The notes under the pieces were generated by a model. It did no database searches and was not told where the DNA came from. It saw only the letters and a list, made by a program, of their open reading frames with translations. The position numbers and the translations under genes were made by a program. Of a DNA stretch of 64,000 bases, positions 23,265-49,539 are shown piece after piece; within the stretch, counting starts at the first letter, position 1; every line of letters starts with the position of its first letter. This stretch comes from Yersinia massiliensis CCUG 53443 (lineage in GTDB: Bacteria > Pseudomonadota > Gammaproteobacteria > Enterobacterales > Enterobacteriaceae), in contig NZ_HE997645.1 of the NCBI RefSeq assembly GCF_000312485.1, forward strand, positions 248,001 to 312,000. The letters are read 5' to 3'.

Positions 23265-23290
23265 TAGCCTTTCTTTCCAATGGACGTTAT

Positions 23291-23806: not shown

Positions 23807-23865
23807 CCATTACTGACACCAGGCTATTGATAGAAAATTTATAATAAGTAACGAGAAATAATAAA

Positions 23866-25572: not shown

Positions 25573-25580
25573 AGGTAATT

Positions 25581-26879: not shown

Positions 26880-26880
26880 A

Positions 26881-27420: not shown

Positions 27421-27438
27421 TAGATGAGTTGAAATACC

Positions 27439-30188: not shown

Positions 30189-30232
30189 TAACCTAAATTA
30201 ACTACGCTATATTACGGAGCAATGTATTTATT

Positions 30233-31363: not shown

Positions 31364-31373
31364 GTAATCACCT

Positions 31374-31907: not shown

Positions 31908-31925
31908 AATGAGAAATCGCTAATC

Positions 31926-32726: not shown

Positions 32727-32739
32727 GGTTGATGTTGTT

Positions 32740-33150
32740 ATGTCTACATTAAGTTCCGTACTCGCAGCCTGTGTGATGCAGGCCGCCAGTGTTCATCAAT
32801 TACCACCGGAATTATTGGTTTCAGTAATAAAAGTTGAAGGTGGAGCCCCTGGTGTTGCAGCCAAAAATCGCAACCGTACCGAGGATCTTGGGGTCATGCA
32901 AATCAATACCGGTGCGTGGTTAGATCTGGTTGCTCGTGCCCATTTTGCAGGTGATCGCGATCAGGCATATATCAAATTACGCGATGACCCCTGCTATAAC
33001 GTACAAGTCGGTGCTTGGATTTTACAACGCTCAATTAAGCAATCTAATGGCGACCTTTGGCACGGAATTGGCCGTTATCACTCTGCGACGCCCGTTCATA
33101 ACCAGCGTTATCAAGCGCTAGTACAAAAAGCTTGGGTCAGTCTGTTTTAA
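32740..33150 (+). CDS. pilT: Lytic transglycosylase-like protein (PilT of R64 type)
   Basis: A 136-residue SLT-domain protein: ESxxN-like KVEGG with the catalytic-type Glu near residue 31, DLGVMQIN (the conserved GLMQ motif) and NVQVGAWIL plus a final AxYN-like IGRYHS. It should open peptidoglycan locally for pilus assembly. The R64 name PilT denotes this enzyme, not the retraction ATPase. No clear signal peptide is present, as the N-terminus (SSVLAACVMQAASVHQ) is only weakly hydrophobic. Confidence 0.8.
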   Translation: MSTLSSVLAACVMQAASVHQLPPELLVSVIKVEGGAPGVAAKNRNRTEDLGVMQINTGAWLDLVARAHFAGDRDQAYIKLRDDPCYNVQVGAWILQRSIKQSNGDLWHGIGRYHSATPVHNQRYQALVQKAWVSLF

Positions 33151-33186
33151 ATCTATCTTTTCGTCATCGGCGTATAGAAAATAACT

Positions 33187-34101
33187 ATGAATCAGAAACA
33201 AAGAATGGAACGGGGTATAACCCTGATAGAACTGGCGATCGCATTAATGCTGGTTGCCGTGGTGGTGGCCGGAGTTGTCACTTGGATGTCCGGCATCAAC
33301 CAACAATTACAATTACGTGGTGATGCCAAACACTTTAGTAGTGTAGCCAAAGCGGCACAGCTTTATTTAAAAGGCGAACGGGGTGAGCTGATTAAAGAGT
33401 ATAACGCCGGTACCACCACTAAATTGGTCACCATTAAAGACCTACAGGATACCGGATATTTAGCGACAGAAATTCAAAGTACGCTGGGTAGAAAACAACA
33501 AAATATAACGATGTTAATCAAACTTAGCAAACCAGCGCATAGTGTTGAAATACGCAGCCTGTTAATTACCAGCGGAGGGATTACCAGCACGCCAGATTAT
33601 ACCAATAGTGAGCTGGGCACTATGGTCAATATGGCCGGAACATCAGCAGGTTTTATGGCCAAGGCCGGAGAGCCGATTCAAGGTATCAGTGGCAGTTGGG
33701 AAGTAAAAGCCACCGATTGGAGCTTTGGCCCTGAAATTAAGCCCGGCCATCTGGTGGCATTACTGACTGATACGTTGACACTTTACTCGAATCAAATCAA
33801 AAAACCTTATTATGAAAATAATCTCCATATAAACAGTAACATACCCAACAATACGGGAAAGTATCTACAAATCAATATAAGGGTGCACTGTGATACTGCC
33901 ATTTGGTGGGCTTGGGGAGTGATAAGTGCCACAGTTGATGGGCTCAACATAGCGGAAGTAAGAATTAAAGGAGGTGGCAAGTATTATTCTCAGGGATTGT
34001 CATTTATTGTCCCTCCGGGTTCAGTTTGGCGAATTATTAAGGAAAGTGACATGTGCTACCCATCCGATGGCAATCAATATCTTGTCACTGAACTTAATTA
34101 A
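33187..34101 (+). CDS. pilV: PilV-like minor prepilin
   Basis: A 304-residue prepilin-like protein with a short leader ending RG, mature N-terminus ITLIELAIALMLVAVVVAGV (Glu +5) and a long C-terminal region. Length and place at the end of the operon match PilV, the tip adhesin of R64-like pili. In R64 the 3' end is switched by a shufflon; here the gene has a single fixed C-terminus and neither inverted segment repeats nor an rci-type recombinase follow. The last ~110 residues are more AT-rich than the start, as expected of a variable adhesin tip. Confidence 0.78.
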   Translation: MNQKQRMERGITLIELAIALMLVAVVVAGVVTWMSGINQQLQLRGDAKHFSSVAKAAQLYLKGERGELIKEYNAGTTTKLVTIKDLQDTGYLATEIQSTLGRKQQNITMLIKLSKPAHSVEIRSLLITSGGITSTPDYTNSELGTMVNMAGTSAGFMAKAGEPIQGISGSWEVKATDWSFGPEIKPGHLVALLTDTLTLYSNQIKKPYYENNLHINSNIPNNTGKYLQINIRVHCDTAIWWAWGVISATVDGLNIAEVRIKGGGKYYSQGLSFIVPPGSVWRIIKESDMCYPSDGNQYLVTELN

Positions 34102-34161
34102 GCATTAATATTTCATTGCGTTTCAGTCACTATTTCTCTGCTAGAGAATCAGGCTATATGG

Positions 34162-34197
34162 CTTTACGCCAGACTAACTTATAGGTTTGGCGTAAAG
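34162..34197 (+). terminator. Hairpin after the pilus operon
   Basis: A 10-bp perfect stem (CTTTACGCCA / TGGCGTAAAG) about 60 bases after the last pilus gene. No U-tract follows, so termination may be inefficient or Rho-assisted. Just downstream, at about 34234-34260, three copies of a 9-base TTTACTTTG-like unit occur. Confidence 0.5.
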
Positions 34198-34300
34198 TAA
34201 AGAATTCGCTGTCACTAATTAAAAATTTTATGATCTTACTTTGTTTACTTTGTTTACTCTGTTCAAGTTATAAATATTGAGTGATTGCATTTTCTGGCAA

Positions 34301-34330
34301 TGGGAGCTAAAAACAGTTTTATAGCTCCCA
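34301..34330 (-). terminator. Hairpin after the lipase-like gene
   Basis: A perfect 9-bp stem (TGGGAGCTA / TAGCTCCCA) with an A/T-rich loop that can pair further (AAAAC/GTTTT). It lies 17 bases past the stop of the minus-strand lipase-like gene. The U-tract is weak. Confidence 0.6.
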
Positions 34331-34347
34331 CAACCTCAATCCACAGC

Positions 34348-35571
34348 TTATTTTCCATCTTTATCAAACATGATCTTCCATTGCGGCACCGCAGTCGCAA
34401 AAGTGCCGCGATGGGTTGTTTGGCCGGTAGAAATCGCCTGCACCTGCGGGTTACCATTCCCCATAGCCTGTTGATAGGTCATTGGCAATTTGCCCAACCC
34501 AATACTGATGGCTTCATCAGCTTCACCATAATAATTCCTGACTGGCGTTTTAATCACCCAACGATAAGCTTGAGTATCGGCTATCAAACGACCATAGGCT
34601 GAGGTGGCAAAAAATTGTGGATCAAAATATTCCGGCCGTACCAGTTTATGTAAATCGGTGGGAATATCAGCGGCGTTAAATGGTTTTTTCTCATAGGCCT
34701 TGCGCGCGACCTCATAATAATCATCATTGATTACCGAACGCGCCAAACCGGGGACACCGTAATAATGCTCGAAAGAGAATGCGGACAGGATAAATAATGT
34801 CGGTACCCAATCGGCATCATTTTTACGCGGGAAATTGAGGAAACCATTTAATGTCATGAAAATATCGGTCGGCGCACTGGCCGTTACCGCTGCCACTACA
34901 GGCACTTTAATTTGTTCTAACTTTTCCAAGAAAGCCATCGTAACAAAGCCCCCCTGTGACCAACCAGCAATAAACAGTTTTGGCGTGGTTATATGCATCT
35001 GCTGTAGTACTACCCTGCTCGCCTGCAACATATCATAACTAGCCTGCTGATGGCTGCCTTTCACCATATAACCTTCCGGCTCAGTAGATTCCCCCATACC
35101 GAAATAATCTGCACCAATGACCACATACCCTTGCCCAGCAAACTGAGCAATCATCAATGCGCTCTCAAGAGACTGCTCAGGGAACGAGGGTACCTGTTGC
35201 TTGCCATACACGGTGCCATGCTGATATGAAACCAAGGGGAAAGTCGCGGATTTGGTGTCAGGGATAGCCAGCAGTCCGCTGGCCGTTGTCGGTTGATTGC
35301 CCCGCTCCGGTATTACTGATGGATAAGTGATGCGATAAAGCTTCACTCCATTGGTCGCCGGCGAGTATTTTACTGTTACACCAGCAAATTCAGGAATCTC
35401 CTGCTGGAGAACTTTATTAAGCCGTGTCTGATCCCAGTAACCAATTAACTCATATTTCACCCCAGATGGCGCTTCAACCACTTGGGTATTCTCTGCAACA
35501 GCAGGGTTGATAGCGAGAGAAATGAAGAATGGAACGAAGAAAACGGCAACTATCTTGCGAAGGTAGGACAT
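34348..35571 (-). CDS. Secreted alpha/beta-hydrolase, lipase/esterase-like
   Basis: A 407-residue exported hydrolase. A signal peptide (cut near INPAVA-E, residue 26) precedes an alpha/beta-hydrolase domain. The nucleophile elbow is GWSQG with Ser205; likely partners are the Asp in YYGEADEAIS (about 350) and the His in TTHRGTF (about 388). An oxyanion-type YQHGT lies at 116-120. It resembles secretory-lipase-type proteins, but the substrate cannot be told. It stands alone, reading against the pilus operon. Confidence 0.75.
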   Translation of the reverse strand: MSYLRKIVAVFFVPFFISLAINPAVAENTQVVEAPSGVKYELIGYWDQTRLNKVLQQEIPEFAGVTVKYSPATNGVKLYRITYPSVIPERGNQPTTASGLLAIPDTKSATFPLVSYQHGTVYGKQQVPSFPEQSLESALMIAQFAGQGYVVIGADYFGMGESTEPEGYMVKGSHQQASYDMLQASRVVLQQMHITTPKLFIAGWSQGGFVTMAFLEKLEQIKVPVVAAVTASAPTDIFMTLNGFLNFPRKNDADWVPTLFILSAFSFEHYYGVPGLARSVINDDYYEVARKAYEKKPFNAADIPTDLHKLVRPEYFDPQFFATSAYGRLIADTQAYRWVIKTPVRNYYGEADEAISIGLGKLPMTYQQAMGNGNPQVQAISTGQTTHRGTFATAVPQWKIMFDKDGK

Positions 35572-36148
35572 GTTGTTTCCTTTTTATTCTGACGAAAAAT
35601 GAGCCACTCCAAAAGTAACAGATCCAGACTAACTTTCCTTATTTAACTGGCCCTAAAAGCTAAACCAAATTATTACTTTCAGTCAGGTTAGCCAAAGATT
35701 AACTCACCATCAATACTTCAATTAAGGAAAATAGTCTGTAGGATAACGCCATTTATCATGTGGTTACGTTAGTTAATTTGCGAAAAAAAAATACAAACTC
35801 GGACGAAAACTAAAATATCACTATATTTATCAACACATAAAAAACATGCCAATATTTTAAAATCCAAGCGTCAAAAACTAAAGCATAGGTATCAACCAGA
35901 CCTAAGTATAGCTTTAAATTATTTAAAAAAGACTTATCGTTATTAAAAGGTAAAGATGAAAAATAAACATTACAATTAAACCGACTAAGCAGAGGGTATT
36001 ATTAATACGTCATCAAGATTATAGTATTGGTAAAAAATTCAAGTCAGATAAAAATCACATTTAGAATTGCAAGAACTCTGAAATTTAATTTTCATGCTTA
36101 ATGAACAATTAGGAACAGCTGGAAATTTTACAATTAAGGATAAAGTTT
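35572..36148. other. AT-rich intergenic region between divergent genes, with lux-box-like site
   Basis: 577 very AT-rich bases with no ORF I can support; it must hold promoters for the lipase-like gene and for the gene at 36149. The only notable sequence is 35894-35913, which matches the palindrome upstream of luxR at 16 of 20 positions (listed separately). Confidence 0.6.
35894..35913. promoter_or_regulatory. Lux-box-like site (second copy)
   Basis: AACCAGACCTAAGTATAGCT agrees at 16 of 20 positions with the imperfect palindrome upstream of luxR (21710-21729). It lies 236 bases before the start of the unknown gene at 36149. Self-symmetry is modest (12 of 20). Recognition by the LuxR protein is a guess. 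Confidence 0.3.
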
Positions 36149-36949
36149 ATGAATAAAAAAGTAAGTTCTATAAACTTAGATGAAACAGCAATTAAATCAA
36201 TGCCGAAATTTTTGATTGAACAATTAGACAACAAATCTGTTATCTGGAAAAAACACGCTTCAGGCATGGACAAAGCTTTATATGTTAATTTGATTGATCC
36301 TCATGGTGTAATGTTTTGCAAGCCGCATGTAAAGAGAAGTGAACGACAAAATCATAATAACTTATTCTGTGCTTTCAAAAAATTTCTTCCCGAGCTAATA
36401 GATATAATACCGGAAAACAATGGTAAGTTCATTGAAAAACCATCTAAAACAAACCTAATATATAATAATCAAGCCTTAAAAGATTTCTATGATAAGTTAA
36501 ATGAAAATAACAAAGAACAATTGAGAGAATATGAACCCGCATATAAAATAAAGGTAATTGATTTCATTACCCAAATTAAGCCCCTTATGCAGCGCTTTGG
36601 TGTACAAACAACAATTTTACGTGCCATAGATAAAGTCACAGATAAGCGGTCTCTATATGAAAAAATTGAAACCATACAAGATAATCTAGGTAAGATCTGC
36701 CTGCATGTTGGCGAATTGACTTTTGTCATTGAGAAAAACACACACAATATTAAATTAATTGATCTTGCTACTGGTTCGAATGGAGCATCAGCAAAAGTAA
36801 ACCAGCGCCAAATTTCATTGGGACTAAATAACATTCAGAAATACATTAAATCAAATTACCTAAACAACAGAAACAATGTTGATACAGAGTACTCACGCCG
36901 CCCCAAAAATAACACCACCACTTATGGTTCCAATTATAAAAAACCATAG
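36149..36949 (+). CDS. Unrecognised 266-residue protein (possible effector)
   Basis: A soluble, lysine- and asparagine-rich protein without signal peptide or membrane segment, in markedly AT-rich DNA, so probably acquired. I do not recognise the family. One region (about residues 180-208, LHVGELTFVIEK ... IKLIDLAT) resembles the catalytic-loop/DFG area of small kinase-fold effectors, where H-G-D and I-K-L-I-D-F/L occur; the usual catalytic Asp and Asn are not at the expected places. The tail (last ~30 residues) is rich in N, R, T and Y and looks disordered. It lies alone between two divergent promoters and the autotransporter esterase. Confidence 0.5.
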   Translation: MNKKVSSINLDETAIKSMPKFLIEQLDNKSVIWKKHASGMDKALYVNLIDPHGVMFCKPHVKRSERQNHNNLFCAFKKFLPELIDIIPENNGKFIEKPSKTNLIYNNQALKDFYDKLNENNKEQLREYEPAYKIKVIDFITQIKPLMQRFGVQTTILRAIDKVTDKRSLYEKIETIQDNLGKICLHVGELTFVIEKNTHNIKLIDLATGSNGASAKVNQRQISLGLNNIQKYIKSNYLNNRNNVDTEYSRRPKNNTTTYGSNYKKP

Positions 36950-37170
36950 AATGAGAAATTATATAAAATTAAGCCATTGACAAAGAGTGTATTGTAACCC
37001 ATGGTTTGTCAACTATTCTGAATAGTATGATTAATCCTCATCAAGCTACACATATTAAATAAGCAAACTAAAAGACATACTGTGATAAAAATGACTAATA
37101 TTTATTGTGACCATATCATAAATAACTATCTAGCATTATTCATTATTTTAAAATTCAATGGAGTTGATTA

Positions 37171-39162
37171 ATGTCTTCAAGAACATCGTATGCAGCACGA
37201 ATGGCTACACTCGCCGCCACTTTATCGTTTTGTGTCATTCCTTTGTCATTCGCATATGACCAACTTTATGTATTTGGCGATAGTCTGAGTGATACCGGTA
37301 ATAATGGTAAATTCACCTACGATAGCAGTACCCACCTTCTGTATGACGAAGTGTTAGCACAACATATCGGTACCAACTTGCTCCCATCCAGTCATGGTGG
37401 CTTCAATTATGCGACCAGTGGCGCTGTAGCAAATCCGGCACTGAATGCCACTCACAACACCCAAGATCAAGTGCAAAATTATTTGAATCGGGTAAACGGC
37501 AAGGCGGATAGCAACGGTCTGTATATCCATTGGATCGGTGGTAATGATCTCGCCGCGGCTGCAACACTCAATCCCGCCGCGTCACAGACAGTGGCTTATA
37601 CCAGTGCGGTGGCTGCCGCCATGCAGGTAAATTCATTACTAAACGCGGGTGCTGGCACGGTGATAGTGCCGACGGTACCTAACATCGGTTCTACGCCAAT
37701 GCTAATGGAGCTAGTTATCCAGCAAGGGCTGAGCGCAGTGCAAAATGCTGCAGTGCAAGCGGCCTATACCACACTAAACTCGCTAGCCACACCCGATAAT
37801 ACCAGCCATCAGCAAGCAATCCATCAGGCACTTACCGCTGCCGCCGAGCAGGCAAGCATTGTCCCATCAGTCCAACATGCGATCGCCGCTCAGCTTATCG
37901 ATGCCTACGACAAATTAAGCACGCAGGCAGAAAAGCTTACCGAGTTCTTCAATAGCAGCGAAGACCACCAGTTAGCACAAAATGGGGGCAATATCGTCAG
38001 AGCTGATGTGAACCGATTATTTGCCGAAGTTATCGCCAATCCACGTCAGTTCGGCTTTACCAATACGGTAGGGATGCCCTGCCCGCCAGGCGTATCGTCA
38101 GCAGTTTGTAGCGCCACGCAAGTCGGTTTTAATGACAGTCAGTCGTATCTGTTTGCCGATAATTTTCACCCAAGTCCGCAAGCCCATTTGCTCGTAGCCG
38201 ATTATATGCAGGCGGTGCTTGACGGGCCAACACAAGTTGTCGCGCTGACCCAAGCTACGGCAGCAATTGCCCGAGACACCCGCGCCACACTCGATAGCCG
38301 TTTCCAACAATTGCGTACCGGTAAAAATCCACCGAATGCCTTGGGGATTTTTGGCGGTTATGCTGGGCAGCGTTACGACTATTCGGCCAATTTGACCGCC
38401 GGAAATGGTCATGCCACTACACATAATTTGAGTGTAGGCGTTGACTATCAACTGACTAACCGCTGGCTTATTGGAGCATTGATTTCAGGTTCGAATGACA
38501 ATCAAAAACCTTCCACCCGCTATGATTATAGCGCACGTGGTTTCTTGTTCTCCGCATTTACCGCCTTGGATATACTTGATCACGGCTGGGTAAATGCCGA
38601 TTTGCACTACGCAACCATGAATTACGATGATATCCAACGCAGTATGCAACTCGGGCCACTGACCCGTACTGAAAACGGTGATACCCATGGTAAACAATGG
38701 GGAGCCAGGTTGACCGCAGGTTATGACATCCCGATCACTCCCTATCTGACAACCGGCCCGATAACACAATTTTCTCTGGACTACAGTAATGTGTCTGGCT
38801 ATAGCGAGCAAAGTAACAGTAGCACTGCGATGCATTTCAACGATCAAACCTATCATTCACAGATTGGTGCAATCGGCTGGCGATTGAGTGGACAATTCAG
38901 CCATTTCTCTCCTTACGCCGAAGTGCTCTATCAGCACCAGTTTGGTGATGATGTCTACCGAGCAGGTGGCGGGTTGAAATCGACTCAAACCCAATTTGTG
39001 CGTAACACCGCCAAACAAGATAACAACTGGCTGGATATGACTCTCGGAGCCAGCCTACCATTGACCGACCAATTAACCGCATTTGCCTCTATATCTCAAA
39101 CCGGCAATCTGAGTAGTGGTGAACAATTTCGCTATAACATCGGTTTCAGCGCCCTCTTCTAG
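37171..39162 (+). CDS. GDSL autotransporter esterase/lipase (EstA/ApeE-like)
   Basis: A 663-residue surface esterase. The signal peptide ends near SFA-YDQ (residue 28/29). The GDSL passenger has block I FGDSLSDTGN with Ser38, block III IGGNDL near 127 and block V DNFHPS with D330 and H333. From about residue 390 a C-terminal autotransporter beta-barrel follows and ends with the typical aromatic YNIGFSALF. Length matches EstA/ApeE (about 650). It should hydrolyse short-chain or lipid esters at the cell surface. A 10-bp hairpin follows the stop. Confidence 0.92.
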   Translation: MSSRTSYAARMATLAATLSFCVIPLSFAYDQLYVFGDSLSDTGNNGKFTYDSSTHLLYDEVLAQHIGTNLLPSSHGGFNYATSGAVANPALNATHNTQDQVQNYLNRVNGKADSNGLYIHWIGGNDLAAAATLNPAASQTVAYTSAVAAAMQVNSLLNAGAGTVIVPTVPNIGSTPMLMELVIQQGLSAVQNAAVQAAYTTLNSLATPDNTSHQQAIHQALTAAAEQASIVPSVQHAIAAQLIDAYDKLSTQAEKLTEFFNSSEDHQLAQNGGNIVRADVNRLFAEVIANPRQFGFTNTVGMPCPPGVSSAVCSATQVGFNDSQSYLFADNFHPSPQAHLLVADYMQAVLDGPTQVVALTQATAAIARDTRATLDSRFQQLRTGKNPPNALGIFGGYAGQRYDYSANLTAGNGHATTHNLSVGVDYQLTNRWLIGALISGSNDNQKPSTRYDYSARGFLFSAFTALDILDHGWVNADLHYATMNYDDIQRSMQLGPLTRTENGDTHGKQWGARLTAGYDIPITPYLTTGPITQFSLDYSNVSGYSEQSNSSTAMHFNDQTYHSQIGAIGWRLSGQFSHFSPYAEVLYQHQFGDDVYRAGGGLKSTQTQFVRNTAKQDNNWLDMTLGASLPLTDQLTAFASISQTGNLSSGEQFRYNIGFSALF

Positions 39163-39172
39163 TACCAGAACT

Positions 39173-39204
39173 GTCAATCTAATCAGGCAACTGGTTAGAT
39201 TGAC
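39173..39204 (+). terminator. Hairpin after the autotransporter gene
   Basis: A 10-bp perfect stem (GTCAATCTAA / TTAGATTGAC) whose 12-base loop can itself pair (CAG/CTG). It starts 10 bases after the stop. The downstream tail is only moderately U-rich. Confidence 0.6.
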
Positions 39205-39663
39205 TTAAACGAATAATAAAACAATACCAGTAGGCTAAAGTATATTTTTGCTGAAAAACGTGCTCCCCTAGTTTTCCTTATCGCATATCGTAGGACATTT
39301 CTATTTAACCTGTAATCCATCGCCATTTATTATAAATAAAAACACCTAAAAACCCTAAAGCCGACTTTAATTAAAAGCATGGAATATATTTCATAATATT
39401 TATATTTGTAATTATTTATTGAATTAAAAAATCGTAAAAAAATGACTAATAACACTGATGCTAGGCCGGAATCTCTGCATTAGAGCTGCATTTACCCTGA
39501 TGATTCGCTACTTATCTCGGTTAGCACCATGAAAAGGCCAATGATTGTATTTATAAAAAGGATGCGTTAATAATCGGTTAACCATTTGTAAATCCCTCAG
39601 CAATTATAAATGGTCGATATCTTTGTACTATAAAATCCAAATTAAAATTATAAGGAATATACA
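39205..39663. other. Intergenic region before the TerB-like gene
   Basis: 459 AT-rich bases with no supported ORF or repeat. A promoter for the TerB-like gene must lie here; I could not single one out. Confidence 0.5.
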
Positions 39664-40152
39664 TTGAAAAAGCTTGATCGTAATGCAGCTTTAGCAAGTT
39701 GGTTTTTCTACCAAACCTATGGTGTTGATAAAAAAGTCAGCACCCCGCAAAAATTACACTATCTAAGCCTTCTGCTTGCTTGCGCTAAAGCAGATGGTGA
39801 CGTCTCTCAAAAAGAAATGGATTATTTCATCGGCGCAGCATTTGCTCGCGGCTGTACCGAAGAAATGGTCGAAGCATTAATAGAAAGTGAAACTACTATC
39901 GACCTCTCTACAGAAGTCGTTAACTTTATTGAAGTCAATCCGAATGCAAAAAAATCGGATGTTCTTTCATTACTTTACAGTGCGATGCAAGTCTGCGCCG
40001 CAGATGGAACATATAGCACTGAGGAAGTTAACGCCATCAGAAAAATCAGTTCTCTACTCGGTATTTCTAAAGAAGAGTTACAAAAAGTTGAAGATTTCTT
40101 TGCCAAAGAGCTGTCTCTAAAACAAGAAGCACGAGTACTGTTCGTCGGTTGA
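39664..40152 (+). CDS. TerB-like (tellurite-resistance TerB family) helical protein
   Basis: A 162-residue helical protein beginning at TTG 39664, with ribosome site AAGGA eight bases before. The TerB-type signature is visible: two repeats with acidic patches (LLACAKADGDVSQKEMDYF and VCAADGTYSTEEVNAIRK). In the family these acidic residues bind metal ions, often calcium. No other ter genes are present, so tellurite resistance is unlikely; it may be a sensor or scaffold. It is separated from the next gene by terminator-like hairpins. Confidence 0.75.
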   Translation: MKKLDRNAALASWFFYQTYGVDKKVSTPQKLHYLSLLLACAKADGDVSQKEMDYFIGAAFARGCTEEMVEALIESETTIDLSTEVVNFIEVNPNAKKSDVLSLLYSAMQVCAADGTYSTEEVNAIRKISSLLGISKEELQKVEDFFAKELSLKQEARVLFVG

Positions 40153-40186
40153 TAAGCTGTAAATCATCTAGATCTAGAAAATAATA

Positions 40187-40254
40187 CTGTGCCAATCATA
40201 TATCCTACGGTTGGCACAGACTAATGTGCGAAAAATCATATTTTTCGTTTTTTT
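40187..40254 (+). terminator. Two tandem hairpins with a T-run (terminator)
   Basis: First stem CTGTGCCAA / TTGGCACAG (40187-40195, 40211-40219); second CGAAAAAT / ATTTTTCG (40229-40247) followed directly by seven T residues. The second is a classical Rho-independent terminator shape and ends the TerB-like transcript. Confidence 0.75.
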
Positions 40255-40279
40255 AATGAATGACTAATAAAAAATCGCC

Positions 40280-41689
40280 ATGAAAAAAAAACTAAGAATT
40301 GCCGTAATTGGTTCAAGCTTTAGTGGTTCAATCTTCACCAGACAACTTGAACGTTATTTGAAAAATCCCGAGGTTATTATTTTCGAGAAAAACGTTAATT
40401 CCGATGTTTCTCCACATTGGGCTCAACCATCAAAAGGGGCTGCCATATTTATTAATCCAAATGGTATGTCCACCATCAAGCACTATGATAATGAGCTTTA
40501 TCACCAACTACGGAAGATAACCACCCCACGCGTTTCGATGGAAATTGATTCTATAAGCATGAGCCATAATAGTCTTTGTAAAATTAAAGATATTATAGAA
40601 AGCGGCTTGGCTGATGACTATGGTGCAACAATCAGGTGGGATAATATTAATCATTTATTACGTAATCTCTTAGATAAATCTAGAATTGTCTATGGCATGC
40701 AATTATCTTCTTACAAATACGATTCTTCCACACATAAAATATCACTGTTATTTCATGAAGACAGTATCTACGCCAATGAAGACTTTGGTGAGTTTGACCT
40801 ATTAGTTGCCGCAGATGGCCGTTACTCTGCCGTAAGAAACACAGAGGAAAAGATTAATTCAGGAGATTCTGATACTACAACCTATTATAGTATTTCAAAC
40901 TTCAGATTATTAGTACCAAATACATCCGAACCTATCGTTGACGATTTAAAGCTAATCTATAATATCCCAGACAAAATAGGGCACCCCCATTACCAAGATT
41001 TGCCCCCATTTAATTCATTATGTCGTGTTGGCTTATCTCATTGTCAAGCTAATGAGCAAAATCCAGCAGGTTCAACTTATCTGTTCGGAAATTTTTCTCT
41101 TGGTAATAACACTGAAATATCGCCAATAATGAAAAGTTCTGATTTTTTAAAAGCACTCTTTATGCCAGCAGGTGGGGCAGCAAATTTGAGTAAACAAGGT
41201 AAATGGCTCATGAGTGTATTGGAAAATGAAAATGCGAATATACACTGGTCAAGATTTCAATCAATCCCAATTAAGTTTACCCCAACAATACATACGAGTA
41301 CGGAAGCTTTGCCTATTCTTTATCTTGGCGATGCCGCCCATGCCTTTCCACCATCATTAGGACAAGGTGCGACAACTGCGATTGAAGATGCTTACTATTC
41401 ATCTGAAGTATTTATTGATGCCATTATTGAAAATCAATATTTCGAAAATAAAGATAGTTACCCCTATATCATTACATTGCTGCAAAAAATCAATGCTCAG
41501 AGAAAACCAAGAATTGAGCTAATAAAAAATGCCAGTATTTCTGCGGGTAAACATTTAACATCAGAAAACATGAATGAAGAACTTCAACAAGAGGCTGAAT
41601 TATGGGCCAATAACTGTCAGTGGCGAAGTATTATCCGCACTATATGGAAAGGGTATTCTCGACCAAAAGACGAACTGTGTTGGCGATAG
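40280..41689 (+). CDS. FAD-dependent monooxygenase (PHBH-like)
   Basis: A 469-residue flavoprotein of the aromatic-hydroxylase group. The N-terminal FAD-binding strand-turn reads IAVIGSSFSG (a variant GxGxxG), the DG motif is VAADGRYSAVR (about residue 180) and the GD motif is YLGDAAHAFPPSLGQG (about residue 352). Such enzymes hydroxylate or epoxidise phenolic and other natural-product intermediates with NAD(P)H. It lies upstream of a type III PKS cluster, so it may tailor its product, but it has its own promoter region and could act independently. Confidence 0.85.
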   Translation: MKKKLRIAVIGSSFSGSIFTRQLERYLKNPEVIIFEKNVNSDVSPHWAQPSKGAAIFINPNGMSTIKHYDNELYHQLRKITTPRVSMEIDSISMSHNSLCKIKDIIESGLADDYGATIRWDNINHLLRNLLDKSRIVYGMQLSSYKYDSSTHKISLLFHEDSIYANEDFGEFDLLVAADGRYSAVRNTEEKINSGDSDTTTYYSISNFRLLVPNTSEPIVDDLKLIYNIPDKIGHPHYQDLPPFNSLCRVGLSHCQANEQNPAGSTYLFGNFSLGNNTEISPIMKSSDFLKALFMPAGGAANLSKQGKWLMSVLENENANIHWSRFQSIPIKFTPTIHTSTEALPILYLGDAAHAFPPSLGQGATTAIEDAYYSSEVFIDAIIENQYFENKDSYPYIITLLQKINAQRKPRIELIKNASISAGKHLTSENMNEELQQEAELWANNCQWRSIIRTIWKGYSRPKDELCWR

Positions 41690-41819
41690 CACATAGATAC
41701 CGTACTTCCACATAGTTATTAAATTTTCACATTACTATTTAGTAGACATATCAGGACTAAGCGCATAAACATTCATTTTCAATCACACACTCACATTTTT
41801 TACTCAAAACGGAAATTAT

Positions 41820-43739
41820 ATGAACCTATTTAAAAAAGCACTTCTTTATCATTTAGACAATTTCATGGCCAAAGGTACGGGAGCCTTTTTAATTGCCATC
41901 TTAATATTAACATTTATAATATCAGCTATTTCTGCGCTTTTTTTAATCAATGTTGAACCCAGTGGCGAAAACCAAAATTTCCTAAGTGTTTTAAGCAGCA
42001 ACATGCAAAATGCTTTGCGAATAACACTAAAAGGGGGAACGACGTCTTCTATTATCGGCGGTATTATAATTGGGATTGGTGGGTTATTTATGGCTGCTAT
42101 GCTTGGCAGCGTATTAAACTATTCCCTTTTCCAAAAAATCCACGATCTTCGCCGTGGCCGCTCAATGATTTTTGCCCAAAAGCATGTCGTAATATTGGGT
42201 TGGTCTATGCAGGCTCATTATATTATTGGTGAAATCATCCTCGCTAATCAAAGTAATGGTGGCGTTAAAATAGTTATCATGGGTGAAGAAGACAAGCTTA
42301 CGATGGAAGAAACTATTCGTGAAAAATTAACTTCTTTATTTGAATTTAAACACTATTATGGCTCAAAAATTGTGTGCCGCAGCGGTAATACTTGCGAACG
42401 AGAAGACATTGATATTCTTAGCCTTGATACGGCCCGGGCAATTATTGTATTAGGCCCAGACAATCGCCAACATGACATTAAAGTAGTTAAAACATTACTC
42501 GCTATTACTAATGCGCTTAACCCACCGTCAACCATATGCACTATAACCGCAGCAGTGAAAAGTGAAGATTACTACCAAGCTGCACTGGTCGCGTCCAATG
42601 GCCGAGCAGCTTTAGTCGTCAGCGATCCATTAATAGCAAAAATCAGTGCTCAAAGCTGCCATCAACCAGGGCTAGCCATGATATATGGAGAGCTACTTTC
42701 ATTCAACGGTGATGAGATTTACTTCAGTAATTCAGCTAGTCTGGTCGGCAGAAAATTTAGCGATGTTATGTTGCAATATTCTGAATCCACCGTCATTGGT
42801 ATTAGAACAAAAAATGGGATAAATAAATTAGTGCCGAATATAGATCACGTATTTGAGGTTGGTGAATCAGTCATATTGATTTCTGAAGATGATAGCCTTA
42901 TTGGTGAAATATCGACTACAAATGAAAAGTTTCATGACCAAATTAATTATATGGCAATATTAAACAAGCCGAAATTTACCGCAGCTAACAATCGCAATGT
43001 CAATACGTTAATATTAGGCTGGAATTCCCGCGCAGAACTTCTGATACGTGAAATGGATAGCTATATTGGCGCAGGGTCGCATACCACAGTCATTTATCAA
43101 CCCAGTGACGCAAGAGATAAAATATGTGATGCCATGAATAGTATCGTGTTAGAAAATCAAGAAATAGAGTTTATACAAAGAGATATTACGAAGTACAAAA
43201 ATATCATAGACGCTAATATTGAAAACTATTCAAGCGTTCTTGTATTATCTCCCGATAACGTAGATGTGAACGATGTTGACTCTACAACTCTAATGATACT
43301 GATGTATTTGCGCGGTATAGTAAAAAGAACAAATAAGCATTGTTCAATAATTAGTGAAATACAAGACCCCAATAACCGAGAGTTAGCCCATTCAGCTTAT
43401 CCTGATGATTTTATTATCAGTTCAAAAATAGTCAGTGTCATACTAGCCCAATACTCAGAGAATATAAATTTGAAATCTATTTATGATGATATATTTGATT
43501 CTGATGGCGCTGAAATTTACCTAAAAGGTGTGACTAACTATTTAAATATTAGCAGTCCAGTTAATTTCTATACCGTAATAGCAGCAGCCTCTACTCAAGA
43601 CCATATTGCTATCGGTTATAGAAAAATGAAATACAAACACGACAAAGAACATAATTATGGCATTGTCATTAATCCGACGAAAAGTGATGAAATCACTTTC
43701 CAAGAGGAAGATAAGCTTATTGTTCTCGCCGAAAATTAA
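41820..43739 (+). CDS. CASTOR/POLLUX-type ion channel with RCK domains
   Basis: A 639-residue membrane protein. Two membrane helices flank a short pore-like region (about residues 20-43 and 80-105), followed by two TrkA-N/RCK Rossmann domains: HVVILGWSMQAHYIIGE near 125 and LILGWNSRAELL near 400. This layout and the GW motifs match the bacterial relatives of plant CASTOR/POLLUX, cation channels of symbiotic calcium signalling. RCK gating rings usually respond to calcium or nucleotides. It sits between the FAD monooxygenase and the PKS operon, two genes before an EF-hand protein. Ion selectivity cannot be told from sequence. Confidence 0.82.
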   Translation: MNLFKKALLYHLDNFMAKGTGAFLIAILILTFIISAISALFLINVEPSGENQNFLSVLSSNMQNALRITLKGGTTSSIIGGIIIGIGGLFMAAMLGSVLNYSLFQKIHDLRRGRSMIFAQKHVVILGWSMQAHYIIGEIILANQSNGGVKIVIMGEEDKLTMEETIREKLTSLFEFKHYYGSKIVCRSGNTCEREDIDILSLDTARAIIVLGPDNRQHDIKVVKTLLAITNALNPPSTICTITAAVKSEDYYQAALVASNGRAALVVSDPLIAKISAQSCHQPGLAMIYGELLSFNGDEIYFSNSASLVGRKFSDVMLQYSESTVIGIRTKNGINKLVPNIDHVFEVGESVILISEDDSLIGEISTTNEKFHDQINYMAILNKPKFTAANNRNVNTLILGWNSRAELLIREMDSYIGAGSHTTVIYQPSDARDKICDAMNSIVLENQEIEFIQRDITKYKNIIDANIENYSSVLVLSPDNVDVNDVDSTTLMILMYLRGIVKRTNKHCSIISEIQDPNNRELAHSAYPDDFIISSKIVSVILAQYSENINLKSIYDDIFDSDGAEIYLKGVTNYLNISSPVNFYTVIAAASTQDHIAIGYRKMKYKHDKEHNYGIVINPTKSDEITFQEEDKLIVLAEN

Positions 43740-43765
43740 TCTCTTTGGCTATTATGCCATGTTTT

Positions 43766-43785
43766 CCTCGCCTAATTGGGCGAGG
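43766..43785. terminator. Hairpin after the channel gene
   Basis: A 7-bp G/C-rich stem (CCTCGCC / GGCGAGG) with a 6-base loop, 27 bases after the stop. No U-tract follows on the plus strand, so its strength is uncertain. It separates the channel from the downstream operon. Confidence 0.45.
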
Positions 43786-44002
43786 ATTACCCCCTAATCA
43801 AAAAATGAATAATCTTACATACATTAGCCTTATAGCTTACATACCCACTTTCAAACCTTATCTATCATATAAAGATAAGTGATTGCTTGGTGGTTTTATA
43901 TTTTGTGTGAAATCCCATATGGCAACTAACTCACGTAACTATTAATTTCATTGCATCGGATGCTAGCTAAATTATTTTATATTTGTTGATAATTTAGGCT
44001 GA

Positions 44003-45235
44003 GTGTTAAATATGGATAGAAACATAAAGATGAAACCAGCAATTGTCACGTCAACGCCGCAACAAGATATGATAGTAAAAGCTCGTGAACTGACACAATA
44101 CCTGCGTAGCCATGCTCGTAGCGTCGAAGAGTCCAGACGAATATCAGAAGAAACAATGCAGCAGTTCCATAATGCTGGATTTTTCAAGCTATTGCAGCCA
44201 ATACGTTATAGCGGGTATGAATATAATCTTACAACGTTTATTGAGGTCATGGCTGAGTTGGGCCGAGGATGTGTATCCTCGGCCTGGTGTTGTTCCATTT
44301 GCTCTATACATCAGTGGCTAGTGAGCATTTTCCCCGCTCAAGCGCAGCAAGATGTTTGGGGATCCCATCCTGAAGCTATCGTGTGCGGTTCCTATGCTCC
44401 GGCAACTATTGCTTCCCCTGTTGAGGGAGGCTATATCGTCCAAGGTCGTTGGAAGTTTGCATCTAACGTCGATAATGCTCAATGGGCCTTACTGGGTGTG
44501 AAGTTTAATACTGGAAGTCAAAACGATACAGGAATGGGTGGATTTGTACTTATATCTAAAAATGAATGGGTTATTGAGGATGACTGGTTTGTTTTTGGGC
44601 AACAAGGTACGGGTTCTAAAACAATAGTCATAGATAAAACGGTATTTGTTCCATCGCACAGGTGTCTTACATTTATAGATGCTTCTTCTGGTTCGCCTCC
44701 AGGCAGTTCCGTTAATCATAATAGCATATACAGAATACCTTTTTTATCTGTAGTCCCTTTAGGTTTAGTCTCACCATTACTAGGTGCTGCTCAAGGAATA
44801 CTAGATATTTTTATTCAACAATGTGGCTCAAGAATAACTCGCGGGGCAGTCGCGGGTGATGGAAACAAAATAAGTCAGTTCTTTCCAATTCAATCTCATT
44901 TGGCAGAAGCATCTGCATTAATAGATGCTGCCAAACTTTTACTCATGAGAGATATATCAGACTGCGAAAAAAAAGTAGCTAATAAAGAGATGATTAACAT
45001 AGATAGTCGTATTCGTAATCGAAGAGACCATGCATTCTCTGCGCAATTGTTGCATAAAGCTATTACGATCTTATTTACACACACCGGTGGTACTGGTCTA
45101 TCACTAGACCAACCAATGCAACGAATCTGGCGAGACTCTAATGCGATTATGCAACATATCGCTTTGAATTGGGATGCAACATCATCAATGGTAGGACAGC
45201 ATCTCATCGGCATAGAGCCTAATGGACAATATTAA
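44003..45235 (+). CDS. Flavin-dependent monooxygenase of the acyl-CoA dehydrogenase fold
   Basis: A 410-residue protein with the acyl-CoA dehydrogenase-like fold of two-component aromatic hydroxylases (HsaA, HpaH-C2, pigment-hydroxylase type): an N-terminal helical part, the mid beta-domain (GRWKFASNVDNAQW near 150, the usual W-x-F-x-SG position) and a C-terminal four-helix part with HTGGTGLSLDQPMQRIWRD. These enzymes use reduced flavin from a separate reductase, which I do not see here. Likely role: ring hydroxylation of the phenolic polyketide made next door (inference). Start may be GTG 44003 or ATG 44012. Confidence 0.82.
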   Translation: MLNMDRNIKMKPAIVTSTPQQDMIVKARELTQYLRSHARSVEESRRISEETMQQFHNAGFFKLLQPIRYSGYEYNLTTFIEVMAELGRGCVSSAWCCSICSIHQWLVSIFPAQAQQDVWGSHPEAIVCGSYAPATIASPVEGGYIVQGRWKFASNVDNAQWALLGVKFNTGSQNDTGMGGFVLISKNEWVIEDDWFVFGQQGTGSKTIVIDKTVFVPSHRCLTFIDASSGSPPGSSVNHNSIYRIPFLSVVPLGLVSPLLGAAQGILDIFIQQCGSRITRGAVAGDGNKISQFFPIQSHLAEASALIDAAKLLLMRDISDCEKKVANKEMINIDSRIRNRRDHAFSAQLLHKAITILFTHTGGTGLSLDQPMQRIWRDSNAIMQHIALNWDATSSMVGQHLIGIEPNGQY

Positions 45236-45359
45236 TATTTTTATTCTCTCAGTAATATTCAAGCTAAGGAATAAAAAGTAACTTTATAGAGCGTTTATAA
45301 AGAATAAAAATCAGAATATTGATTATCGTAAAACATTTTACATTAAGGATTTAATTTTC

Positions 45360-45923
45360 ATGCTAACACAATTTCAGATAAAGAAGCTTACTAAAATATT
45401 CAATTGCTATGATTTTGATAATAGTGGTTTCTTAGAGAAATATGACTTTACTCGCCGTTCAGAACGACGTTATGAAATCGCTGGTTGGGACCCAAATTCA
45501 GCTCAAGCTAAAGAACTAGAATCGCTTAATATGCAACATTGGGAGGCTTTCAGTCATTATGCCGACAGCAATAGTGATGGTAAAATCACCCTAAAAGAGT
45601 GGCTTGCGGTATTTGATAGCCAGATTTCAGGAAAACCTGTCGCCTTCGATAGTTTTCCTCTCCACTTGCAACACTTCTTTGAGGCAATACTAAAGTCTCT
45701 AGATGCTGATGGCAGCGGTGACTATTCTTATTTTGAATATGCACAACTTCTGAAAAATTTTGGTACGTATGATGATGCTACCGTCAAATCTCTGTTTGAT
45801 AAAATGGATATCAATGGAGACGGTGAGTTTTCCTTAGATGAAATGAAACATGCATTTGCAGAGTTTTATATGAGTGACGATCTGAACGCGCCAGGAAACT
45901 TGGTCTTTGGCCCATTAGAATAA
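45360..45923 (+). CDS. Four-EF-hand calcium-binding protein (calerythrin-like)
   Basis: A 187-residue soluble protein with four EF-hands. Loops 2-4 are canonical 12-residue calcium loops: DSNSDGKITLKE (about 76-87), DADGSGDYSYFE and DINGDGEFSLDE. Loop 1, DFDNSGFLEKYD, ends in Asp rather than Glu and may bind weakly. The layout matches bacterial calerythrin and sarcoplasmic calcium-binding proteins, which are known mostly from actinomycetes. It lies inside the candidate polyketide operon and near a CASTOR/POLLUX channel, suggesting calcium buffering or sensing tied to product formation (inference). Confidence 0.9.
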   Translation: MLTQFQIKKLTKIFNCYDFDNSGFLEKYDFTRRSERRYEIAGWDPNSAQAKELESLNMQHWEAFSHYADSNSDGKITLKEWLAVFDSQISGKPVAFDSFPLHLQHFFEAILKSLDADGSGDYSYFEYAQLLKNFGTYDDATVKSLFDKMDINGDGEFSLDEMKHAFAEFYMSDDLNAPGNLVFGPLE

Positions 45924-45934
45924 TGGTGTTAGTC

Positions 45935-45954
45935 GTCTAGACATAGGTTTATCT
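45935..45954. promoter_or_regulatory. Lux-box-like site upstream of the type III PKS
   Basis: GTCTAGACATAGGTTTATCT agrees at 15 of 20 positions with the palindrome upstream of luxR (21710-21729). It lies 84 bases before the PKS start and 11 bases after the EF-hand stop. Self-symmetry is weak. A real site would put the PKS under AHL control. Confidence 0.3.
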
Positions 45955-46037
45955 TTTCCCGCTCACGACTCATGGGCGGGTATTTATAAAACACATCAAG
46001 CTCATCTCTAATTTAAGCATTAAATAAGGCGTCTTAA

Positions 46038-47099
46038 TTGATTCAGATATCTACACCAACAATATGTAAACCAGCCGTTATCCTTCCGAAATACAGCGTT
46101 ACTCAAAAGGAAATAATTGAATTTATTAAGGTCAACTTTTCCGATACTGAAGAATTACCAAAAGCAATTGAGATGATTAGTAACAACCAAGTTTTAAAAA
46201 GACATTTTATACGACCACTTGAGGAAATTATATTTGATTGTGGATTAGAGAAGAGGAATTCACTCTATATAAAATATGCGCGTCAACTCGCAAAAGAAGC
46301 TGCACTACAAGCCATTAAAAATTCCGGTCTAGCCCTATCGGAGATTAATATGGTTATCGCAACATCATGTACCGGTATTTCGATGCCATCATTAACGACC
46401 ATGTTGATTAATGATCTCGAACTTTCCGCAACAACACGCCAACTGCCCATTTCTCAGTTGGGCTGCTCCGCAGGAACGGCAGCGGTCAATCTGGCAGTCG
46501 ACTACTGCAATGCTCACCCTGGCAACAATGTGCTCATTGTGAATGTCGAACTGTGTTCATTGTTATTCCATCCAGAAGATACTTTATTATCCTCTCTAAT
46601 TTCCGCCTCTCTTTTTGGCGATGCGGCTACCGCAAGTGTCGTTCGTGGAGAAGGAGGTAAAGGTTTTGCAATTACAGCAACACATTCATTTTTGCTAAGC
46701 AACTCAGAAGATTATATCTATTATAAGATAAAAGATGCAGGGTTTTACTTTAGATTAAATAAGAAAGTCATGTCATCAATTAAATTAGTCATCCCTGAAA
46801 TAAATGATTTTTTAAAAAAAACCACTCAGAAAGAACCACATGAAATGGATTTCTATGTCTTTCATACCGGCGGAAAGCGAATTTTAGATGAACTTGTTAA
46901 AGGACTTTTTCTTCAAGAAGAGGACATATTAAATAGTAGAAACTCCTTATCAGAGAACGGTAACCTATCAAGTGCTGCCGTATTCGATGTATTAAACAGA
47001 CTATTTGAAAATGAGCCACCATTACCGGGCCAAAAAGGGTTAATGGTGGCATTTGGTCCGGGGTTTAGTACAGAAATAAGCACAGGGTTTTGGGTATGA
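46038..47099 (+). CDS. Type III polyketide synthase (RppA/chalcone-synthase family)
   Basis: A 353-residue homodimeric-type ketosynthase that condenses malonyl-CoA. The catalytic triad is visible: Cys143 in QLGCSAG, His276 in VFHTGG and Asn309 in ENGNLSSA. The family GFGPG motif appears as AFGPG (338-342). Overall it resembles bacterial RppA (tetrahydroxynaphthalene synthase) over its length, including SCTGxxMPSLT and ELCSLLFHP. I take TTG 46038 as start because the family begins here and the next ATG is inside the fold. The product could be tetrahydroxynaphthalene/flaviolin-like or a resorcylate; the neighbours favour a phenolic acid. Such genes are unusual in Yersinia as far as I know. Confidence 0.92.
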   Translation: MIQISTPTICKPAVILPKYSVTQKEIIEFIKVNFSDTEELPKAIEMISNNQVLKRHFIRPLEEIIFDCGLEKRNSLYIKYARQLAKEAALQAIKNSGLALSEINMVIATSCTGISMPSLTTMLINDLELSATTRQLPISQLGCSAGTAAVNLAVDYCNAHPGNNVLIVNVELCSLLFHPEDTLLSSLISASLFGDAATASVVRGEGGKGFAITATHSFLLSNSEDYIYYKIKDAGFYFRLNKKVMSSIKLVIPEINDFLKKTTQKEPHEMDFYVFHTGGKRILDELVKGLFLQEEDILNSRNSLSENGNLSSAAVFDVLNRLFENEPPLPGQKGLMVAFGPGFSTEISTGFWV

Positions 47100-47138
47100 A
47101 TCCAATCTTAATCCACATTCATCAAATATGGTAGTAGT

Positions 47139-48146
47139 ATGAAAAACAGAATAATAGCGGTAGAAGAAGCATTTATTACTCCCTGCATTGTCGCTGAGTG
47201 GGACAACTATTTAAGCAAAGATGATGTAGAACCAGGCTTCCGTATAATGGGACAAACCTACCTTAAAGCAACACCTAGCACCAAAATAGTACAAGATAGG
47301 CTACTCAACCTTGGTGTAGAACGAATTGCAGATATGGATGCCGCAGGCATTGACCTACAAATACTGTCACTATGTTCGCCAGGCGTGCAGGTTTTTGAAC
47401 CCGCAATGGGCGTTCGACTTGCACATCAAGCGAATGAGATATTAAGTGATGCTATCAAGTCCTTTCCGGGGCGATTCGCTGGGTTAGCGACCATCGCCCC
47501 TCAAGATCCCAAAGCGGCAGTAAAAGAGTTGAAGCGCTGTAAATATCTAGGCATGAAGGGAGTGATAATTAATTCCCACACTATGGGGGAATATTTAGAC
47601 TCAGAGAAGTATTTTGCAATATTAGAAAGCAGTGAATCACTGAAGTTGCCGATTTATCTTCACCCAAGAGAGCCGTCCCCCAGTATGATTGCTCCATATC
47701 TTAATTATGGATTATATTTTGCCGGATGGGGTTTTGCCGCAGAAACAGGGCTACATGCATTACGATTAATCATGAGTGGTGTGTTTGATAAATTACCTAA
47801 CCTTAAATTTATATTGGGCCATTTAGGTGAAGGTATACCATACTGGTTACAGCGTATTGATAATCGCTATAAACTTCAGGTCAGTATTGGTGCTGTGCGG
47901 CAAATGAAAAAGCTCCCAAGTGAATATTTTCGAGAACATTTCGTCATTACAACGAGTGGGATGTATTCTGATGCAGCCTTACAACTTTGCCTAGCCGAAT
48001 TAGGAGCAGATTCCATTCTCTTTGCTGCCGATTACCCCCATGAATCAGCGCAGGAAGCAGTGGCATTTATGGATTCCGCACCTATCTCAGATGAGAATAG
48101 AAATAAAATTTACTGGAAGAACTCCACTAGAGTTTTTGATCTCTGA
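47139..48146 (+). CDS. Amidohydrolase-2 family protein, resorcylate/dihydroxybenzoate decarboxylase-like
   Basis: A 335-residue TIM-barrel metal enzyme of the ACMSD/gamma-resorcylate decarboxylase group. The N-terminal metal motif is EEAF (E-x-A variant), followed by IYLHPR (metal His), LGHLGE (active-site His) and the C-terminal ADYPHE with its Asp. These features point to non-oxidative decarboxylation of a phenolic acid rather than hydrolysis. It starts 39 bases after the PKS stop, so both are likely co-transcribed, and it could remove the carboxylate from a PKS product (inference). Confidence 0.85.
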   Translation: MKNRIIAVEEAFITPCIVAEWDNYLSKDDVEPGFRIMGQTYLKATPSTKIVQDRLLNLGVERIADMDAAGIDLQILSLCSPGVQVFEPAMGVRLAHQANEILSDAIKSFPGRFAGLATIAPQDPKAAVKELKRCKYLGMKGVIINSHTMGEYLDSEKYFAILESSESLKLPIYLHPREPSPSMIAPYLNYGLYFAGWGFAAETGLHALRLIMSGVFDKLPNLKFILGHLGEGIPYWLQRIDNRYKLQVSIGAVRQMKKLPSEYFREHFVITTSGMYSDAALQLCLAELGADSILFAADYPHESAQEAVAFMDSAPISDENRNKIYWKNSTRVFDL

Positions 48147-48185
48147 TTTCCGATAAATTTCGTTTTAAAAAATATGATAATACTA

Positions 48186-48246
48186 TTGATGTTTAGGCTA
48201 TAAGCACCCCATTTATAATGTGTGATACATAAAGCCTAAACATCAA
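48186..48246. repeat. 14-bp perfect inverted repeat downstream of the PKS operon
   Basis: TTGATGTTTAGGCT (48186-48199) and AGCCTAAACATCAA (48233-48246) flank a 33-base loop. It lies 39 bases past the decarboxylase-like gene. It may act as a terminator-type hairpin or be a small mobile repeat; no U-run follows. Confidence 0.6.
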
Positions 48247-48376
48247 CAGTGACACTTCTCACACTTAAAAGTAAATTACCCTACATAATATTATCACTCC
48301 CCCTACAAAAATAGATTATTAAAGCGATTATTTTAAACGGGATATAAACAAGCCTAGTTTCAGTCAAAATTTGAGA

Positions 48377-48404
48377 TGGAGAGAAAGTATGACTCCGCTA
48401 TAAT
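48377..48404 (+). promoter_or_regulatory. Candidate sigma-70 promoter of the metallo-beta-lactamase
   Basis: A perfect -10 box TATAAT (48399-48404) lies 38 bases before the start codon. A weak -35 (TGGAGA, 48377-48382, four of six consensus bases) stands 16 bases upstream of it. This gives the lactamase its own promoter, apart from the PKS operon. Confidence 0.5.
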
Positions 48405-48418
48405 CTCCACAAATTTAA

Positions 48419-49186
<768 letters not shown>

Positions 49187-49240
49187 AATGACTTATCGAA
49201 AAGACTAGTTTCCCCTGCAGAACCATCAATTGAGAAACTC

Positions 49241-49259
49241 GACACCGCTTCGCGGTGTC
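49241..49259 (+). terminator. Hairpin after the beta-lactamase gene
   Basis: A perfect 8-bp stem GACACCGC / GCGGTGTC with loop TTC, 54 bases past the stop; strong stem, but no U-run. The rest of 49187-49539 shows no gene I can support. Confidence 0.5.
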
Positions 49260-49539
49260 ATCAACGTCCCGATATTATCGTTTCGCTCATGCCGACACTG
49301 CCATTTCTACCAAACCCCTAAGCCACGCGCAAACAGGCGAATCCCCTCAAAACTAAGTAAAGCGCCTTAAGCAAGAGCATCGGACTAAAGTACACCTCCA
49401 TGAATCAAATGCTGTCTTTTTATAGTGCAACACCTTCTTGACGGTATAATTTACTCAAACCAACAAAAAATTATTGTAATGCGATAATTTTTTCAACATA
49501 CTCTGCAGGAAATTTCATTTTATTAAGGACGATTTAAGC

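Follow-up and report, generated by a model that had tools for sequence, protein, structure and literature searches.

We analyzed a 64,000-nucleotide stretch of the genome of Yersinia massiliensis CCUG 53443 (contig NZ_HE997645.1, positions 248,001 to 312,000; the whole stretch is called the window here) for a set of genes around a type III polyketide synthase (PKS). Six of these genes, encoding a CASTOR/POLLUX-family membrane protein, a reduced-flavin oxygenase, a four-EF-hand protein, the PKS, a LigW-like amidohydrolase, and a subclass B2 metallo-beta-lactamase, are found again in a second Yersinia genome, G015. Because all six occur there in the same order and more diverged, at a second chromosomal place, while a remnant is present at the ancestral site, we consider that the block moves as a unit. 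Most likely the block encodes a pathway to a hydroxylated phenol. We give just under an even chance to the fuller reading, in which it moves horizontally, its product is a polyhydroxylated small phenol or quinone formed by the route proposed below, and it senses calcium. The features of the region are as follows.

39664..40152, + strand: TerB-domain protein, 162 amino acids (aa), TTG start (Pfam TerB, 3.7e-15; 85% aa identity to the copy at the ancestral site of G015)
40280..41689, + strand: group-A-like FAD monooxygenase, 469 aa (Pfam FAD_binding_3, 9.8e-7; GD motif at residue 350)
41820..43739, + strand: CASTOR/POLLUX-family membrane protein with an RCK gating ring, 639 aa (Castor_Poll_mid, 1.3e-27; CASTOR 6o6j, 6e-46)
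44003..45235, + strand: reduced-flavin oxygenase resembling HsaA and p-hydroxyphenylacetate hydroxylase, 410 aa (Acyl-CoA_dh_2, 9.8e-28; NCBIfam HsaA, 6.9e-100; PDB 2rfq and 3afe)
45360..45923, + strand: four-EF-hand protein of the calexcitin/calerythrin type, 187 aa (Pfam EF-hand_6, 1.5e-15)
45958..45980, + strand: terminator-like hairpin in the gap between the EF-hand and PKS genes (z -2.99)
46038..47099, + strand: type III PKS, 353 aa, TTG start (Pfam Chal_sti_synt_N, 1.6e-22)
47139..48146, + strand: LigW-like amidohydrolase, probable aromatic-acid decarboxylase, 335 aa (Amidohydro_2, 2.1e-40; PDB 4icm, 9.5e-77)
48443..49186, + strand: subclass B2 metallo-beta-lactamase, YEM-like, 247 aa (NCBIfam NF033087, 418.9 bits)
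49427, no strand: right edge of the island; from here on the window is collinear with its sister genome G024, 96% identical (genome comparison)

The original prediction had placed seven genes, TerB through the amidohydrolase (39664..48146), in a single orientation. The open reading frame list and the Pfam family matches confirm those genes and their coordinates, and the proposed linkage of polyketide, decarboxylase, and oxygenase genes is supported by the recurrence of their order elsewhere in the G015 chromosome. The lactamase gene, outside the range first noted, belongs with the block, being linked to it in both genomes (L021 9074-9814 in G015, 81% aa identity), and the TerB gene at the other end is probably an upstream neighbor and not part of what moves. 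Chance open reading frames are excluded, since dN/dS against G015 is 0.04 to 0.12 for the channel-like protein, the C-terminal piece of the oxygenase, the EF-hand protein, the PKS, and the amidohydrolase. The TerB and PKS genes, which start with TTG, each have an AAGG stretch upstream, and the same TTG start of the PKS gene is found in G015.

Among 25 genomes of the genus, the full type III PKS, the FAD enzyme, the channel-like protein, and the lactamase were each found in the same two; the weak PKS matches in most of the others we read as FabH. At the DNA level, window 29500-49420, which includes the EF-hand, oxygenase, and amidohydrolase genes, had no match in G024, G019, or G008. The ancestral site in G015 (311 to 319 kb) holds lipase, autotransporter, TerB, and FAD genes collinear with the window, followed by a 127-bp remnant of the channel gene (86% identity). 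The six block genes, with the channel gene intact, stand about 240 kb away, at 559 to 566 kb, reversed but with their relative order kept. Between the window and G015, nucleotide identity is 83% for the ancestral lipase-to-FAD site and 74 to 77% for the block, while G015 and G024 are 83 to 87% identical over four long stretches lying outside the island; G024 itself shares 96% identity with the window past position 49427. Judged by these identities, the ancestral site fits the divergence outside the island, whereas the block does not. The dS values are likewise 0.40 to 0.91 for the lipase, autotransporter, TerB, and FAD genes and 1.26 to 1.37 for the channel, oxygenase piece, PKS, and amidohydrolase genes; the EF-hand value of 2.14 is saturated and was not used. 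On the simplest reading, an ancestor would have had the whole set, and G015 would have lost the native part and now hold a separately acquired copy. Duplication followed by loss may be an alternative history.

In G024, four short matches (65 to 72%) to 9.6 to 29.5 kb of the window were found and none to 29.5 to 49.4 kb, and the corresponding interval spans about 17.5 kb, compared to about 124 kb in the genome of the window, making it about 106 kb shorter. This places the block on the margin of a large island. A pilus region at 9.6 to 33.7 kb, which is displaced in G015 as well, is intermediate between the block and the ancestral site in its identity to G015 (78 to 82%).

The PKS matches PF00195 and PF02797 above cut-off, and its predicted Cys143/His276/Asn309 triad is indeed intact and invariant across a three-row alignment; in a larger alignment, a single row, L058 from a Sodalis symbiont, deviates from it, at Asn309. 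The enzyme had been described as RppA-like, and that part of the original prediction does not hold. In a tree of 42 rows (L061, 251 aa, was omitted as incomplete), 24 rows including the RppA structure 1u0m split from the other 18 with support of 100/98, and the window PKS falls on the 18-row side, with G015, three Paenibacillus rows, ten Pseudomonas/Chromobacterium rows that we take to be PhlD, a Photobacterium plasmid row, L059, and Pks11. On this split we reject an identity as RppA (tetrahydroxynaphthalene synthase), with which the window enzyme has the fold family and the triad in common but not the clade. The window and G015 enzymes form a pair of their own, with no settled position relative to PhlD, and the long branches of Pks11, L059, and Photobacterium make the deeper order of the tree unsure. 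The PhlD-type and Paenibacillus enzymes are the nearest type III PKS group, at 46 to 48% identity. From their species and gene order, the related Pseudomonas and Chromobacterium loci are presumably phl clusters for 2,4-diacetylphloroglucinol (DAPG), and a route to a small phenol is likely in common. Unlike in DAPG clusters, however, no product encoded in 39664-49186 gave a family match of the PhlA, PhlB, or PhlC type, and oxygenases and a decarboxylase-like protein are present instead. With its own branch alongside G015 and no phlACB-type neighbors, the PKS was not assigned to the PhlD/DAPG clusters. A further PKS-like stretch, in G050 (L005), covers query residues 4 to 124 at 35% identity and has an internal stop; it is perhaps a decayed relative.

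For the amidohydrolase, the nearest solved structures are the 5-carboxyvanillate decarboxylase LigW (4icm, 9.5e-77) and then the gamma-resorcylate decarboxylases. The original description as resorcylate-decarboxylase-like was right in its superfamily, with LigW rather than the resorcylate enzymes as the closest relative. The protein has the motifs EEAF, YLHP, GHLGEG, and DYPHE, and EEAF, YLHP, and DYPHE correspond to those of 4icm, 4inf, and others, the first reading EEAV in 4icm; we take the Glu, His, and Asp residues of these motifs to be metal binding. Unlike the genes of LigW and the gamma-resorcylate decarboxylases, the window gene adjoins a PKS gene, and decarboxylation is the predicted activity. 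The reduced-flavin oxygenase reaches 334.5 bits with the NCBIfam HsaA model, whose cut-off is 450, and is thus on the same superfamily branch but is not HsaA itself. The FAD protein is weakly matched: its best FAD_binding_3 stretch is limited to residues 346 to 374, which include the GD motif, and one solved structure was hit, at 3.4e-4.

The four predicted loops of the EF-hand protein are present at residues 18, 69, 115, and 150, three of them ending in Glu and the first in Asp, and all four are kept in G015. Its best PDB matches are a protein named juvenile hormone diol kinase (3.7e-21), calexcitin (5.3e-14), and calerythrin (1.6e-13). In length, loop number, and sequence it resembles calerythrin, calexcitin, and sarcoplasmic calcium-binding proteins, and it is predicted to bind calcium. 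One account (PMC4053335) describes known bacterial members, calerythrin among them, as putative buffers and stabilizers; unlike known proteins of this type, the window protein sits within a polyketide block. Among 369 genomes of the class, no relative was found at 1e-12 beyond the protein's own genome. Of 17 plasmid records with relatives, 15 were examined and 12 were annotated, and in 5 of those 12 the EF-hand gene is near biosynthetic redox genes, by our reading of the annotations and with no random-gene control. The closest relative, from Crinalium (33%, L077), is inside a type I aromatic PKS cluster with the type I PKS, an aromatase/cyclase, methyltransferases, and a PF01494 hydroxylase directly after the EF-hand gene. 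The others are in Planktothrix (an FAD enzyme and terpene genes), Streptomyces NBC_01001 (a nonribosomal peptide synthetase and an FAD enzyme), S. tsukubensis (a cyclodipeptide synthase and a P450), and, as the loosest case, Streptomyces NBC_01558 (P450s and an acyl-CoA dehydrogenase family member). The remaining 7 neighborhoods do not look biosynthetic; three of them (SAT1, S. clavifer, and S. microflavus) do contain a redox gene, with no scaffold gene recognized.

The channel-like protein aligns with the soluble domain of CASTOR and is homologous to CASTOR/DMI1 in the gating ring, where the side-chain ligand residues of the Ca(II) and Ca(III) sites are kept. Its residues A142, S145, E299, E356, D357, and D358 correspond to CASTOR A342, S345, E493, E552, D553, and D554, a list that includes backbone ligands of cluster II. 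In the CASTOR study (PMC6697748), the cluster II side-chain ligands are S345, E493, D553, and D554; E493A strongly reduced activity and E493Q abolished it; D442 is part of cluster I, with D442A leaking at low Ca2+; and D265 is the suspected selectivity residue, D265N being without current. In the window protein, D442 is replaced by Ser248, and D444 corresponds to D250. The G015 protein keeps the aligned residues except for Ser145, which is His, and the Glu of E299 and both Asp residues of D357/D358 are kept in 7 of 13 bacterial rows. At the filter, the sequence is TLKG in the window protein and SLRG in that of G015, with a shortened pore loop, and the acidic filter residue of CASTOR is replaced; the filter Asp is kept in 9 of the 13 rows, and TDPG or TDSG occurs in 8. 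A calcium-binding gating ring is likely in the window protein, judging from these residues, and a CASTOR-like calcium pore is not, a Ca2+ channel role being doubtful because the acidic filter residue is absent. The original call of a CASTOR/POLLUX-type channel is borne out in the family, with the gating-ring ligands, but not by an intact Ca2+ filter; of the calcium link that it proposed, what is supported is the presence of calcium-ligand residues in both the EF-hand and the gating-ring proteins. Channel relatives are present in 10 of the 369 class genomes, including that of the window. Eight plasmid records hold relatives, and the one examined, from Deinococcus, showed no link to other genes of the block.

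In the route that we infer from this gene content, the PhlD-side PKS would build a ring of the resorcylic or phloroglucinol type by condensing malonyl units, a ring carboxyl group would be removed by the LigW-like enzyme, and the HsaA-like oxygenase and the FAD enzyme would carry out hydroxylations. Calcium would be sensed by the calerythrin-type protein and the CASTOR-like gating ring, which would tune pathway activity or membrane traffic. Taken alone, calcium control of the block seems to us fairly unlikely. It is more unlikely still that the block is a calcium-sensing polyketide module, in which a filter-less CASTOR-family sensor or altered pore, with the EF-hand protein, would switch or localize the PKS-flavin-oxygenase pathway, the EF-hand protein being, in Yersinia, one instance of a broader and so far unrecognized role of calerythrin-type proteins in the service of redox tailoring enzymes of biosynthetic clusters.

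Several observations weigh against a calcium-sensing biosynthetic block, beginning with the missing CASTOR filter residue (D265). The co-occurrence rests on two genomes, a small sample, and in G015 the HsaA-like oxygenase is split over two frames into two broken pieces, unless this is a sequencing error. Pfam and NCBIfam recognized no flavin reductase, regulator, or exporter gene in 39664-49186. Thirty-seven loci of other bacteria with related PKS genes, drawn from a scan with two short peptide patterns and several with less than 10 kb of flank, were checked by tblastn (1e-3); none had a TerB, FAD, channel, oxygenase, EF-hand, amidohydrolase, or lactamase partner, and only LysR-family matches were found. 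The conserved gene order that the original prediction suggested looking for recurs in G015 but not at these PKS loci of other bacteria. The independent occurrence of the genes in relatives, which it had named as contrary evidence, is seen in part, the TerB and FAD genes standing apart from the rest in G015 and the 37 PKS loci lacking the partners. Transcription is a further point. The spacers from TerB to the lactamase are 127, 130, 263, 124, 114, 39, and 296 nt, with 6 of the 7 above 100 nt, and hairpins of different sequence lie 3' of the EF-hand gene in both genomes (z -2.99 in the window, -3.50 in G015). Promoter and terminator scans overall gave no more sites than shuffled sequences. Because of these spacers and hairpins a single cotranscribed operon is doubtful, and the PKS and amidohydrolase genes may together form their own unit or an attenuated one.

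Much of this would be expected if the region were genomic-island cargo without functional unity, with a two- or three-gene phenol pathway (PKS, decarboxylase, and perhaps an oxygenase) lying by accident beside the EF-hand, channel, TerB, and lactamase genes and moving along with them. The missing matches and shorter interval in G024, the separation of TerB and FAD in G015, the partnerless PKS loci, the hairpin, and the low GC content (33 to 42% per gene compared to 44% for the window) all agree with such cargo, which we hold to be quite possible, though on the unlikely side. Against it, the set of six genes recurs with its order kept at a second place, with a divergence unlike that of stretches outside the island, and the channel, EF-hand, PKS, and amidohydrolase genes are under purifying selection. 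Decidedly unlikely, in our view, is aromatic catabolism or detoxification, in which the oxygenases and decarboxylase degrade hydroxybenzoates and the PKS is unrelated. LigW is an enzyme of lignin-aromatic breakdown, and the one plasmid oxygenase relative examined among 328 records, from Variovorax SRS16 (59.7%), has flavin reductase, amidohydrolase, and intradiol dioxygenase genes nearby; but no ring-cleavage or reductase gene was recognized in 39664-49186 by Pfam or NCBIfam, and a gap of 39 nt (window) or 40 nt (G015) separates the PKS gene from the amidohydrolase gene. An RppA-type tetrahydroxynaphthalene pigment cluster is highly improbable. The nearest solved structure to the PKS is the Streptomyces enzyme 1u0m (39%), and Cys111 and Cys173 align with two 1u0m cysteines, yet the identity to PhlD-type and Paenibacillus enzymes is higher and the PKS is outside the RppA-side clade.

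All 203 plasmid records with PKS relatives were below 60%, and the one examined (Photobacterium, 40%) had no annotated partner, nor did the two examined among 467 plasmid amidohydrolase records (Photobacterium, 47%, and Roseinatronobacter); the two Photobacterium relatives are on different plasmids and in different strains. Relatives of the FAD protein were not found on plasmids. Type III PKS clusters as such are known, and the original statement that this combination was not known from a described pathway agrees with our search of the open-licence literature, in which it was not found among the titles and abstract openings of the papers listed.

The lactamase scores 418.9 bits with NF033087 (cut-off, 240), which makes it a subclass B2 enzyme, and its best family is blaYEM, named after Yersinia mollaretii, at 473.6 bits and below the cut-off of 535. 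It shares the B2 class with YEM-1 of Y. mollaretii, an enzyme listed in PMC10740994, and differs in falling under the blaYEM cut-off.

Other features were observed around the block. Window 22652-34101 holds a probable type IV pilus gene set, located elsewhere in G015 at 78 to 82% and nearly without DNA match in G024; the two proteins scanned with Pfam were a T2SSE ATPase (27439-29052) and a Shufflon_N/N_methyl pilin (33187-34101). A 266-aa protein at 36149-36949, with no Pfam or NCBIfam match and 60% aa identity in G015, has a dN/dS of 0.60, compared to 0.07 to 0.24 for four other genes compared at the ancestral site. The noncoding stretches 39173-39417, upstream of TerB, and 43796-43859, between the channel and oxygenase genes, both match G015 C1:1694933-1695309 and are perhaps a repeat element. 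In G015, the moved block is flanked by two PPDK/PEP-utilizer proteins (L021 3914-6217 and 17614-19800), and L021 2662-3834 encodes a 390-aa, possibly amidinotransferase-like protein without Pfam match.

To our knowledge, few systems have been defined in which calcium-binding proteins control a bacterial natural-product pathway, and the block provides a concrete gene set for asking whether they do so. The CASTOR relative offers a natural split, with the calcium gating ring conserved and the calcium filter lost. The tie between a subclass B2 metallo-beta-lactamase gene and a moving biosynthetic block, in turn, is a hint at the home context of such enzymes.

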